From Methanomassiliicoccales archaeon (lineage in GTDB: Archaea; Thermoplasmatota; Thermoplasmata; Methanomassiliicoccales; UBA472), in NCBI GenBank assembly GCA_035527755.1, contig DATKZX010000015.1, forward strand, positions 1 through 55,323: a DNA stretch of 55,323 nt, in the 5' to 3' direction. A model generated the notes under the pieces. The model did no database searches and was not told where the DNA came from. It saw only the letters and a program-made list of their open reading frames with translations. Shown here one piece after another: positions 19,792-54,412 of the stretch (position 1 is its first letter; each line of letters opens with the position of its first letter). A program made the translations under genes and the position numbers.

Positions 19792-20700
19792 ATGCGCTGC
19801 TCCAAGTGCTCTGCTCCGGCCGTAACCTTCATCAGGTACAATGGCTCCCATCTCTGCCAAGGCCACTTCCTGGAATACGTGGAGAAGAGGGTGAAGCGCG
19901 AGGTCCGATCGCAGTTGCAGATAAACGGAGAGGTTCACATCGGGGTCGGGGCCTCCGGGGGCAAGGACAGTCAAGCGGCCCTGTACCTGCTCCATCGCAT
20001 CCTGGGCTGTCGCCAAGGGGTTCGCATCACCGCCATCACCGTGGACGAGGGCATCGAGGGATATCGCCAAGAGACCATACCGAAGGTCCGCGAGCTCTGC
20101 TCCTCGCTGGGGCTGGATCACGTGGTCACCTCCTTTGAAGATGTAACCAAGATGTCATTGGACAGCATGGTGGGAAGGACCGGCGAGAAAGAGGCCTGCA
20201 CCTACTGCGGGGTCTTCCGCCGGCGCTGCCTGAACCTCGCCGCCAAGGAGCTGGGAGTGAACGTGCTGGCATTGGGGCACAACCTGGACGACATGGCCCA
20301 GTCCATCCTGATGAACTTCACGCGGGGCGACGTGGAGAGACTTGCCCGATTGGGACCGCATGAACGGGTCCAACCGGGTCTGGTGCCGCGCATGCAGCCG
20401 GTACGTTCGATACCGGAGAAGGAAACCTACCTTTACGCCCTGCTGACCGGACTGCCTTTCTCCGACGCCGAATGCCCATACGCCGTCCACGCCTTGAGGA
20501 ACGAGTACCGGGACATCGTCGACAGCATGGAGCACCGGCACCCTGGCACCCGCCATTCCATTCTCGGAAGCTTCGACCGGCTGAGACCGCTGATGAGGGA
20601 GGGCTTTCCTCAGGCCTCCCTGTCCACCTGTGGCTGCGGGGAACCGACCCTCAACGAACGGTGCATGGCCTGCGAGATGCTCTTAAAATTGGGAAAATGA
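19792..20700 (+). CDS. ncsA: tRNA 2-thiolation enzyme NcsA/Ctu1 family
   Basis: PP-loop enzyme of the TtcA/NcsA group that thiolates uridine 34 in certain tRNAs after adenylating it. The 302 residues start with a zinc ribbon (CSKC ... HLCQGHF), followed by the ATP-binding SGGKDSQAA, the CTYCGVFRR motif that helps hold an iron-sulfur cluster, GHNLDDMAQS and a second zinc ribbon at the C-terminus (CGCGEP ... CMAC). The ATG at 19792 was chosen over GTG at 19780 from the TATA-box distance. It is convergent with glyA, 31 bases away. Confidence 0.9.
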   Translation: MRCSKCSAPAVTFIRYNGSHLCQGHFLEYVEKRVKREVRSQLQINGEVHIGVGASGGKDSQAALYLLHRILGCRQGVRITAITVDEGIEGYRQETIPKVRELCSSLGLDHVVTSFEDVTKMSLDSMVGRTGEKEACTYCGVFRRRCLNLAAKELGVNVLALGHNLDDMAQSILMNFTRGDVERLARLGPHERVQPGLVPRMQPVRSIPEKETYLYALLTGLPFSDAECPYAVHALRNEYRDIVDSMEHRHPGTRHSILGSFDRLRPLMREGFPQASLSTCGCGEPTLNERCMACEMLLKLGK

Positions 20701-27184: not shown

Positions 27185-27277
27185 TTTGACCTCTTGGATA
27201 TCTGGATATGATCGTTTACCAATGAATTTGTAGTAACGCAATAAATAATATGCTACCCTTTGTTTCAAGAAGCCATC

Positions 27278-27984
27278 ATGAGCGACGATGATATGAAGAG
27301 AGCGTTGGACTCCATCAGCCGTGGGAAGATGGTATTGATATTCGATGCTGATGACCGGGAGAAGGAGACGGACATGACCATCGCCTCTCAGTTCGTTACC
27401 CCCGCCTCCATCAGAGAGATGCGCAAGAACGCCGGGGGGTTGATCTGCACCACCGCGCACAACGATATCTGCCGTAAGCTGGACATGCCATTTCTGGCCG
27501 ATGTGCTGGCCGCCAATCACGACAAGCACCCTGTCCTGCAGAACCTTACACCGAACGACATTCCCTACGATACCAAGTCGGCCTTCTCCATCACCATCAA
27601 TCATCGCCGGACCTTCACCGGCATCACCGATAATGATCGGGCGCTCACCGTTTCCGAGTTCGCCAAATTGGCGAAGGGATCCTATTCCATGAACGAGGAG
27701 GAGGCCCAGGTGGAGTTCGGGAAGCAATTCCGCTCCCCGGGGCACATCCACCTTCTGAACTCCACTCCCCAGCTGCTGAGCAAGCGCAAGGGGCACACCG
27801 AACTGGCCACGGCCATGATGGTGATGGCGGGGGTCACACCAAGCGCCACCATCTGCGAGATGATGGGGGACGATGGCAACGCCCTCAGCAAAGAAAAGGC
27901 TAAAAGGTATGCGGATCGATTTGACCTTTGCTTCCTGGAGGGAAAGGATATAATCGACTTCTGGAAGAGAGGCGGTAATAAGAA

Positions 27985-27988
<4 letters not shown>
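27278..27988 (+). CDS. ribB: 3,4-dihydroxy-2-butanone-4-phosphate synthase
   Basis: Makes the four-carbon precursor of riboflavin from ribulose-5-phosphate. The 236 residues show the acidic metal-binding loop DADDREKETDMTIAS near residue 30 and the C-terminal signature SPGHIHLLNSTPQLLSKRKG followed by HTELA. The ATG at 27278 is about 30 bp after the TATA-like run ATAAATAATA and is preferred to a TTG 18 bases earlier. It is the first of four tightly packed riboflavin/FAD genes; ribL overlaps its stop by four bases. Confidence 0.94.
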
Positions 27989-29308
<1,320 letters not shown>

Positions 29309-30805: not shown

Positions 30806-32725
30806 ATGGCCTTGGTCCGTCTCGGTAAGATGCATCTGCGTTGGTGCCAGGAATGCAACGTCCCAGTACTGGAAGAGGAGGTCTGCGGACGATGCGGCGG
30901 ACGGACCGAAGCGGTCAACATGACCCCGCCCGGGGACGCCAGGCCCGGTTTCGAATATAATCTCGATCTGGTGAGGGGTCTGCTCGACCAGCAGTTCGGA
31001 CCGGGGTCCGGGGAGGCATTGCTGCCCCACGACCAGGTCTTCGTCATGAGCAAGGTCCCGGGACTGGACCGGTTGGACGAGATCATTTCCAACGGAGCGG
31101 TGGTGGCCACCCTCCGTTACGATCTGGGGATCGGCTGGAGGGTCCTTCTCCGCGTCAAGGGAGCGGCCCATATCCTGAAGAAGGCCAGCAAGAACCTGGT
31201 GGTGGCCGACATCGGGGCGGTCGAGCCCATACTCGGATCGCAGAATCTGATGGCACCGGGAGTGGGAAAGGTCGTCGGTGATTTTTCCAAGGGCGAGGAG
31301 GTCATCGTACTGGACCCGGAGCAACGGGCCCTGGCCACCGGCGTGGCCCGCATGAGCTCGGATGAGATGCGCTCGGCGGAAAGGGGCGTGGCGGTCAAGG
31401 TGCGATGGTCGGAGAGGCCCGCGGACCCTGAGCCTAGAAATACCGCGGATTGGCCGAAGGCATTGGAGGCCAACGCCAAGGTCATGAGCCGACGGGTCTA
31501 TGACGGAAGGGACTTCGTCCTTCGACTGGTGGAACAGTACAAGGACATACCGCAGGTGGTATCCTTCTCCGGCGGAAAGGACAGTCTGGCCTGCCTGCTG
31601 CTGACCCGCGAGGCGGGCCTGGACCTGCCGATCTTCTTCATAGACACCGGACTGGAGTTCCCGGAGACGGTGGAGTACGTGCACCAGCTGAAGCAGGAGC
31701 TGGATCTCAACCTGGTCATCGGAAAGGCGGACGAGGAGGCCTTCTTCGGCAATCTGGAGTTCTTCGGCCCTCCGGGCAAGGACTATCGCTGGTGCTGCAA
31801 GACCAATAAGCTCGGTCCTACCGTCAAGGCCATAGTCGAGCATTATCCTGATGGGGTCCTATCGTTCATCGGGCAGCGCCGCTACGAATCGGAACAGCGC
31901 GCTAACAAACCAAGGGTATGGCAGAATCCCTGGACACCGGGGCAGATAGGCGCCTCGCCCATACAGGATTGGACCTCGCTGCACGTTTGGCTGTACATAT
32001 TCCAGAGCGGGGTCAGTTACAATCCCTGGTACGAGCGGGGGCTGGACCGCATAGGCTGCTTCCTATGCCCGGCATCGGACATGGCCGAGCTGAGCCTGGT
32101 GCACAGCAGCCCCTCCTTCGAACGGTGGGAAAGCTTCCTGAAAAGCTATGCCGAACGCAAGGGACTGGGACCGGAATGGGTGGAGCATGGACTGTGGCGG
32201 TGGAAGAAGGTCCCGCCGTCGGTGATCGAGGAGCTGAAGCGCAACATACCCGGCTTCGAGATCACCAGGAACGAAGGGCCGCGCACCGGTGAGGGCAACC
32301 TGCGCCTCAGGATGCAGGAGGGTTTCTCCCCCTGCACCTTGGGGTTCAGCATAGAGGGGGCGTTCTCCCGCGATCTGGACCTGGAACAGGTCTCCAACGT
32401 GCTCAACATGGTCGGGGAGGTAGATATCGGGGCGAACGAGGGCTGGTGCGCTGTCGGCAACGTGACCGTTTTCCGTGAGGGAGCGGTCATCGCCAAGGGA
32501 GCGGACCAAGAAAAAATAAGAAGGGATTTGGAAAAGGTTCGCCGTGCGGTGGTTAAGGCCGAGGAATGCGTCGGATGCGGAGTTTGTATCGCCAGATGCA
32601 AAGAGGGTGCACTTGTGCTGACACAGGGAAGGATACGCGTTGAGGCGAATAGATGCACCCATTGCAGTGGGTGCATGGAACCTTGCCCGGCGATCAGCTT
32701 TGGCGACGCCGCCTTTGACTTTTAG
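30806..32725 (+). CDS. PUA / PAPS-reductase-like / two-cluster ferredoxin fusion protein
   Basis: A 639-residue protein with four modules. Residues 14-30 are a zinc ribbon (CQEC ... CGRC). Residues of about 100-215 contain a PUA-type RNA-binding domain. Residues 245-430 are a PAPS-reductase-like PP-loop domain with SFSGGKDSL, and with Cys330-Cys331 and Cys418-x2-Cys421, the pattern that holds a [4Fe-4S] cluster in APS reductases. The C-terminus has two ferredoxin motifs (CVGCGVCIARC and CTHCSGCMEPC). Methanogens have similar proteins of unresolved role. The PUA domain suggests RNA sulfur chemistry rather than sulfate assimilation; this is inference. Confidence 0.88.
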   Translation: MALVRLGKMHLRWCQECNVPVLEEEVCGRCGGRTEAVNMTPPGDARPGFEYNLDLVRGLLDQQFGPGSGEALLPHDQVFVMSKVPGLDRLDEIISNGAVVATLRYDLGIGWRVLLRVKGAAHILKKASKNLVVADIGAVEPILGSQNLMAPGVGKVVGDFSKGEEVIVLDPEQRALATGVARMSSDEMRSAERGVAVKVRWSERPADPEPRNTADWPKALEANAKVMSRRVYDGRDFVLRLVEQYKDIPQVVSFSGGKDSLACLLLTREAGLDLPIFFIDTGLEFPETVEYVHQLKQELDLNLVIGKADEEAFFGNLEFFGPPGKDYRWCCKTNKLGPTVKAIVEHYPDGVLSFIGQRRYESEQRANKPRVWQNPWTPGQIGASPIQDWTSLHVWLYIFQSGVSYNPWYERGLDRIGCFLCPASDMAELSLVHSSPSFERWESFLKSYAERKGLGPEWVEHGLWRWKKVPPSVIEELKRNIPGFEITRNEGPRTGEGNLRLRMQEGFSPCTLGFSIEGAFSRDLDLEQVSNVLNMVGEVDIGANEGWCAVGNVTVFREGAVIAKGADQEKIRRDLEKVRRAVVKAEECVGCGVCIARCKEGALVLTQGRIRVEANRCTHCSGCMEPCPAISFGDAAFDF

Positions 32726-54316: not shown

Positions 54317-54337
54317 TATGCATTTTATGAACAGAAG

Positions 54338-54412
54338 CGGGCGGGGGGGGATTCGAACCCCCGGCCTGCAGCTTAGGAGGCTGCCGCCATATCCAGACTA
54401 GGCCACCCGCCC
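54338..54412 (-). tRNA. tRNA-Arg (anticodon CCT)
   Basis: A full cloverleaf of 75 bases can be drawn. The acceptor GGGCGGG pairs with CCCGCCC, the anticodon stem GCAGC/GCTGC closes the loop CTCCTAA with anticodon CCT (reads AGG, arginine), and the T arm GGGGG-TTCGAAT-CCCCC is perfect. The discriminator is G and no CCA is encoded. There is no intron. The D stem has three good pairs and a U-U mismatch. Confidence 0.95.

Follow-up and report, generated by a model that had tools for sequence, protein, structure and literature searches.

A six-module protein encoded in the window

The window analyzed here is a stretch of 55,323 nucleotides from a Methanomassiliicoccales archaeon (assembly GCA_035527755.1, contig DATKZX010000015.1, positions 1 to 55,323 of the forward strand), and our subject is a single gene within it whose product we call the window protein (P0001). 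The frame reads as ATG, 638 further codons and a stop. It encodes a full-length member, with no tested difference, of the PRK13795 family of NCBIfam (NF010366-NF010369), an equivalog named only "hypothetical protein"; model NF010368 (PRK13795.1-3) covers residues 4-633 at 621.7 bits, over its cut-off of 588. The same genome holds a second paralogue that is 33% identical (L002) and whose best family is NF010366 (PRK13795.1-1), where it scores 670 bits and the cut-off is 745.

Six modules were confirmed in the order zinc ribbon, C2 domain, PUA domain, PP-loop domain with a cluster site, alpha+beta domain and two-cluster ferredoxin (Table 1). The original prediction, made from the bare DNA, had placed a zinc ribbon, a PUA domain, a PAPS-reductase-like domain with Cys330-331 and Cys418-421, and a two-cluster ferredoxin in one frame of 639 residues, and both Pfam and our alignment agree. 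Its count of four modules fell short, as the C2 domain before the PUA domain and the alpha+beta domain before the ferredoxin had been overlooked. Pfam detects PAPS_reduct (E 3.8e-44) and PUA (E 7.3e-20) with ease; TGT_C2 (E 4.6e-5, 24.0 bits) lies slightly below its cut-off of 25.3, and Fer4_21 (E 4.9e-7, 30.2 bits) lies below its cut-off of 35 with all eight cysteines present. Across 62 aligned relatives there is no variation in the zinc-ribbon cysteines (14/17/27/30), SGGKDS, the cluster cysteines (330/331/418/421) or the ferredoxin cysteines (588/591/594/598/617/620/623/627). An AlphaFold2 model built on the same alignment has a mean predicted local distance difference test score of 89.2 and a predicted template modeling score of 0.85.

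Table 1. Positions in the window of the gene and its predicted modules
Feature	Position	Strand	Basis
Whole coding sequence, 639 residues, PRK13795.1-3 family, paralogue A	30806..32725	+	ORF translation and NCBIfam
N-terminal zinc ribbon, Cys 14/17...27/30	30845..30895	+	invariant in 62 sequences
C2 (TGT_C2-like) domain, residues 56-124 (~50-124)	30971..31177	+	Pfam near cut-off; archaeosine TGT fold and profile
PUA domain, residues 132-200	31199..31405	+	Pfam, 71.1 bits vs cut-off 24.8
PP-loop (PAPS_reduct) domain, residues 251-423	31556..32074	+	Pfam, 151.2 bits; fold Z 17-22
ATP-type PP-loop motif SGGKDS, residues 255-260	31568..31585	+	invariant in 62 sequences; altered in 4/4 CysH controls
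Cys330-Cys331 of RWCCK motif, predicted [4Fe-4S] ligands	31793..31798	+	alignments
Cys418-x2-Cys421, predicted [4Fe-4S] ligands	32057..32068	+	alignments
Alpha+beta domain, residues ~495-578, weak TBP-like fold match	32288..32539	+	predicted structure
Two-cluster ferredoxin tail, residues 581-629	32546..32692	+	Pfam; 62-sequence alignment

A phosphorothioation-type core and a probable tRNA-type reader

Among the defense models of PADLOC, the best match to the window protein is BrxP, which carries out DNA phosphorothioation in BREX type 4 (170.8 bits, E 9.9e-51), followed by SspD (51.7 bits) and DndC (33 bits); two of the four CysH controls were scanned with the BrxP model and reached 77.4 and 56.8 bits. 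A profile-profile comparison with six BrxP/Ssp-like proteins gave a probability of 100 and an E value of 5.7e-60 over 405 columns, running from residue 214 through the alpha+beta domain and the ferredoxin. This agrees in layout with BrxP and some SspD proteins, which have an extra alpha+beta domain and then a ferredoxin-like, cysteine-rich region (PMC12839542; papers with PMC numbers are cited here and below from excerpts). BrxP thus shares the PP-loop core with RWC[C/T] and CxxC, the alpha+beta region and the two-cluster ferredoxin tail. The series SGGKDS, R/K-W-C[C/T] and then CxxC is found in 22/22 proteins of paralogue groups A and B, in all four short PUA-containing relatives and in nine of nine BrxP, Ssp, DndC and viral proteins. 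Whereas BrxP lacks a C2-PUA unit, carries DUF4007 and sits in a BREX-4 locus, the window protein has the C2-PUA unit, housekeeping neighbors and no Pfam match to DUF4007, and no BREX, dnd or other defense gene occurs among the 10 neighbors scanned. DndC, a DNA phosphorothioation sulfurtransferase, is a weaker match: SGGKDS, RWC and CxxC are common to it (2/2 DndC controls), but it has neither ferredoxin tail nor PUA domain and its second Cys is replaced by Thr, and the window protein scores 31.1 bits on the NCBIfam DndC model against a cut-off of 290.4.

Since Cys330, Cys331, Cys418 and Cys421 align with the ligand columns of CysH, we predict that they hold a [4Fe-4S] cluster. Thr replaces the second Cys of the pair in the DndC controls and in the short relatives, so Cys331 may be an exchangeable ligand. 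Cys510, part of an SPC motif in the alpha+beta domain, was considered as a catalytic residue and rejected as not general, since three sequences out of the 11 in alignment A1 (L005, L008 and L027) lack the PC there. The alpha+beta domain itself has no Foldseek match at E <= 0.001. With VIA-align it resembles archaeal TBP (Z 8.4, 73 residues, root-mean-square deviation [rmsd] 2.5), a value barely over background from which we claim no fold; in the model its strand-helix order is that of one TBP repeat, and it might be an additional nucleic-acid-binding module. The Mog1/PsbP-like fold reported for the corresponding domain of BrxP (PMC12839542) is absent among the named matches listed by Foldseek and VIA-align.

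The N-terminal part suggests RNA. Residues 46-201 match the profile of archaeosine tRNA-guanine transglycosylase (TGT) at E 7.7e-13, and the fold of the C2-PUA unit matches the same enzyme at Z 15.4 (146-149 residues aligned, rmsd 2.4-2.6); the structures matched include 1j2b, which has tRNA bound. The C-terminus of ArcS matches the C2-PUA part at E 1.7e-11. The unit can be aligned to that of archaeosine TGT over its whole length, but the window protein has neither the transglycosylase nor the ArcS catalytic domain. The RNA link of the original prediction had been made to hang on the RNA-contact surface of the PUA domain; at the sequence level, and taken as a whole rather than contact residue by contact residue, the domain is canonical and lies within an archaeosine-TGT-like C2-PUA unit. 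The excerpts of PMC10853773 contain no mention of a PUA domain.

The Fe-S tRNA thiolases TtuA, NcsA and TtcA likewise combine an ATP-using PP-loop with an Fe-S cluster, and TtuA and NcsA superpose at Z 13-14 over ~200 residues. The window protein differs from them in its four rather than three cluster cysteines and in its additional ferredoxin and C2-PUA unit, and neither PF01171 nor ThiI PF02568 is among the 14 Pfam families that it matches at E <= 1. The ferredoxin tail implies a redox step, and neither such a tail nor such a step is described for the known tRNA thiolases in the excerpts cited here. A C-terminal cysteine desulfurase fusion has been reported for some homologues from methanogens and anaerobic methanotrophic archaea (PMC6286981); such a fusion would be more in keeping with sulfur transfer than with reduction of sulfate.

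Weighing the possible functions

From these comparisons, we read the window protein as an ATP- and Fe-S-dependent RNA sulfurtransferase, most likely one that acts on tRNA, and give this reading a probability of about 0.6. We infer RNA as the substrate, tRNA as that RNA and every catalytic step. The C2-PUA unit would dock tRNA as it does in archaeosine transglycosylase, and the PP-loop, with the ATP that SGGKDS suggests it uses, would adenylate an RNA oxygen. Sulfur held at the cluster of Cys330/331/418/421 or on a nearby cysteine would then replace that oxygen as AMP leaves, while the ferredoxin tail would supply electrons that either reduce a persulfide or S0 to sulfide or keep the cluster reduced. 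The suggestion of reductive sulfur transfer to RNA in the original prediction agrees with both the BrxP and the archaeosine-TGT comparisons, its support being comparative. Both the family, which is already catalogued, and its parts are known. The apparent novelty lies in the way a phosphorothioation-type core is combined with a tRNA-type reader, and in the case against the sulfate-pathway label. We found no proposal of RNA sulfur transfer for PRK13795 in a literature search that was mostly without subscription journals and bioRxiv.

The most testable specific product is 2-thiocytidine (s2C) at tRNA position 17, because archaeal s2C has no known enzyme, being listed as "to be determined" (PMC5372739). 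We hold this assignment tentatively, as one that is more likely wrong than right. s2C17 occurs in tRNA of Methanococcus maripaludis, Pyrococcus furiosus and Thermococcus kodakarensis and not in that of Sulfolobus acidocaldarius (PMC7668247), and in T. kodakarensis s2C is independent of the ubiquitin-like sulfur carriers that feed the two known 2-thiolases (PMC11323500). The latter species has a gene, TK1315, that appears in print under the name "phosphoadenosine phosphosulfate reductase" and whose product has at least 581 residues, going by the numbering given (PMC5663688). At strict limits (NF010368 at E <= 1e-80, PRK08557 at E <= 1e-60), Haloferax volcanii and S. acidocaldarius have no full-length relative. 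The evidence from tRNA, TK1315 and distribution is compatible with s2C17 and is no proof of it. The genome also encodes a ThiI-type domain, and positions 19939-20340 (+) of the window encode a PF01171-type PP-loop (49.7 bits) within an open frame of 315 residues, likely a candidate for an NcsA/TtuA-like tRNA thiolase; 4-thiouridine and 2-thiouridine (s2U) may therefore already be covered. The sole tRNA gene that ARAGORN finds in the window, tRNA-Arg(CCT) at 54337-54412 (-), has C17.

Several observations weigh against an RNA sulfurtransferase. PUA domains are also present in glutamate 5-kinase and other proteins that are not known to bind RNA, and the gene lies downstream of riboflavin genes rather than RNA genes; of 50 testable loci, 17 have RibH no more than 4 kb upstream. 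Branches that unite the PRK13795 family with BrxP and DndC have weak support (48-79). C17 is present in 15 of the genome's 36 tRNA genes by our own parsing (one of the 36 being sub-threshold), a count that does not discriminate. TK1315 exceeds the length of a CysH and has roughly that of a PRK13795 protein, but its membership is judged solely by its printed name and residue numbers. TtcA, archaeal ThiI and Ncs6 have three cysteine ligands (PMC5372739), and the window protein keeps four, like APS reductases. Two relatives from Methanocaldococcus jannaschii are cited as reducing adenosine 5'-phosphosulfate (APS) and 3'-phosphoadenosine 5'-phosphosulfate (PAPS) in vitro (PMC3448663, PMC6286981, PMC10322725); the earlier statement that such proteins have no agreed role has to be qualified for these two. 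The family is without an assigned function. Finally, we found no activity, RNA binding or mutant phenotype for the PRK13795 family.

CysH enzymes hold APS or PAPS in an altered PP-loop, where it is attacked by a cysteine that belongs to an ECG(I/L)H motif at the C-terminus. Our four CysH controls conform to this pattern (altered PP-loop and ECG motif in 4/4, SGGKDS and RWC in 0/4). All 22 proteins of groups A and B have SGGKDS and none has ECG(I/L)H after the PP-loop domain, the window protein included; two ECG strings in this set are part of CxxC motifs that belong to Fe-S sites or zinc ribbons. If the protein were an assimilatory APS or PAPS reductase that depends on ferredoxin, with the PUA domain as a regulator or relic, this would account for the PAPS_reduct fold (Z 17-19 to APS and PAPS reductases), for the Cys-Cys and CxxC ligands in the same columns as in 4/4 controls and for the M. 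jannaschii citations. However, the window protein carries a ferredoxin and a C2-PUA unit that CysH does not have, and its scores lie well under the reductase cut-offs, with 63.2 bits for the APS reductase model TIGR02055 (cut-off 235.3) and 84.1 bits for the PAPS reductase model NF002537 (cut-off 154). Nor did we find genes that would make the substrate. ATP sulfurylase is present in 0/101 genomes of the order. For APS kinase, 57/101 have matches at E <= 0.001, all of them fragments confined to the P-loop end of the model and none extending beyond its position 73 of 152. The genome of the window protein has no APS-kinase match at that threshold and no CysD-like match, and its PAPS_reduct matches are limited to the two paralogues and one that is sub-threshold. 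PAPS reduction in Methanothermococcus thermolithotrophicus is attributed to an unrelated AprAB-like enzyme (PMC10322725). With SGGKDS intact, ECG(I/L)H missing, ATP sulfurylase absent from the order's genomes and APS kinase seen only as fragments, we conclude that APS or PAPS reduction is unlikely, and the "RNA-regulated sulfite/APS reductase" of the original prediction is poorly supported.

If RNA is the substrate, the chemistry could still differ. TilS-like PP-loop enzymes carry out non-sulfur chemistry on RNA, and the match to MesJ/TilS (Z 13.9) would suit a reaction such as amination of an adenylated base, with structural clusters. Twelve invariant Fe-S cysteines and an architecture common to sulfurtransferases argue otherwise, and we regard this as quite unlikely. 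Sulfur might also go to the RNA backbone rather than a base. The family would then be an RNA-directed, housekeeping branch of the phosphorothioation enzymes. With C2-PUA as its guide and driven by ATP and ferredoxin, it would put sulfur in the place of a non-bridging phosphate oxygen in structured RNA. Such an enzyme is favored by the closest named relatives, which modify the DNA backbone, and by the RWC motif shared with DndC and BrxP, but known archaeal RNA sulfur marks are on bases (PMC5372739, PMC7668247) and the 10 neighbors scanned include no partner ATPase or helicase gene. We consider it a long shot, albeit one that would mean enzymatic sulfur modification of the RNA backbone, with the DNA defense versions having arisen from it or alongside it. 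A role in DNA phosphorothioation or defense, as in BREX-4, could draw on the same catalytic core and on the true BrxP-DUF4007 proteins of the phylum; the housekeeping pattern (38/38 genomes of the order), the tRNA-type C2-PUA unit, the neighbors free of defense genes and the lack of a DUF4007 match make it very improbable.

Hardly any weight falls on a PP-loop enzyme of flavin metabolism akin to an FMN (flavin mononucleotide) adenylyltransferase, even though the PP-loop domain is structurally most similar to the PAPS domain of human FAD (flavin adenine dinucleotide) synthase (Z 21.8) and the gene directly follows a riboflavin cluster at 27260-29308 (ribB, a RibL-like nucleotidyltransferase, archaeal ribC and ribH). 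This operon already contains a nucleotidyltransferase-family candidate for FAD synthase at 27985-28431, flavin adenylation can do without Fe-S clusters, a ferredoxin and a PUA domain, and the link to RibH is missing in 33/50 loci. As a functional clue, the neighborhood was set aside: the riboflavin genes and an aminotransferase, which recurs upstream in 21/50 loci, seem to reflect an ancestral order of genes. These counts cover loci with at least 3.5 kb upstream.

Should the RNA sulfurtransferase assignment prove true, a methanogen family widely mis-annotated as "PAPS reductase" would become a third kind of nucleic-acid sulfurtransferase, with a phosphorothioation-type core and a tRNA-reading head. 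The orphan archaeal thionucleosides s2C17 and s2U33 would come within reach of direct gene-deletion tests, the genomic argument for sulfate reduction in many methanogens would be weakened, and a common source would be suggested for defense chemistry and translation chemistry.

Distribution and related loci

We sampled 292 genomes of the phylum, and the family is matched at E <= 2e-169 in all 38 genomes of the window's order. By our reading of the match rows, a second copy is likewise present in 38/38, split across contigs in one. The families labeled f5, f7, f24, f25 and f33 gave domain-level matches only (best E 2.5e-19). Among 14 named control genomes, only M. jannaschii and Methanosarcina acetivorans match NF010368 (E <= 1e-80), and the same two match PRK08557 (E <= 1e-60); the status of relatives in Thermococcus, Methanococcus and Methanosarcina is taken from control-genome profile matches and papers. 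A link to tRNA-dependent cysteine synthesis was rejected for this phylum, as SepCysS occurs in 0/292 genomes, yet the family is in 38/38 of the order. Two paralogues per genome make two different targets likely. The second paralogue of this genome (L201, 8435-10354 (+) of contig C8) also has 639 residues, and its PUA domain is degenerate (16.9 bits, below the cut-off). It has a GHLKGK stretch in common with short PUA-containing relatives at three loci (L202-L204).

These short relatives, of ~430-440 residues, consist of a ribbon, a PUA-like region and a PP-loop; they have RWCT rather than RWCC and no ferredoxin tail. At 3/3 loci they adjoin an aIF5B-like GTPase on the same strand (domain scan for L203 alone), which we count in favor of an RNA substrate. 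A further archaeal relative, of 527 residues and without a PUA domain, is flanked by an integrase and a DrmA-like helicase (L211). It is among the relatives without PUA that keep the N-terminal CxxC ribbon, so it looks as if either the housekeeping form gained the C2-PUA unit between its ribbon and its PP-loop or the defense form lost it; support in the tree is too weak to give the direction. Built from 39 sequences with one CysD as root, the tree supports monophyly of CysH (100), group B (89) and groups A and B with one relative of 472 residues (79), and is otherwise weak.

Among plasmid relatives, the nearest belong to systems of the BrxP/SspD kind: in Methanosphaera the neighbor is a BREX-4 PglZ gene, and in Treponema the neighbors are DUF4007, a class V aminotransferase and a helicase. 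Proteins of the BrxP-DUF4007 type also exist in the same phylum, at L205 4060-6435 (-), with 993 bits on the BrxP model, and, going by sequence alone, at L206 4217-6523 (-). The genes at L211 4707-6290 (+) and 6292-9564 (+) are possibly an undescribed pairing of phosphorothioation-type with DISARM-type genes.

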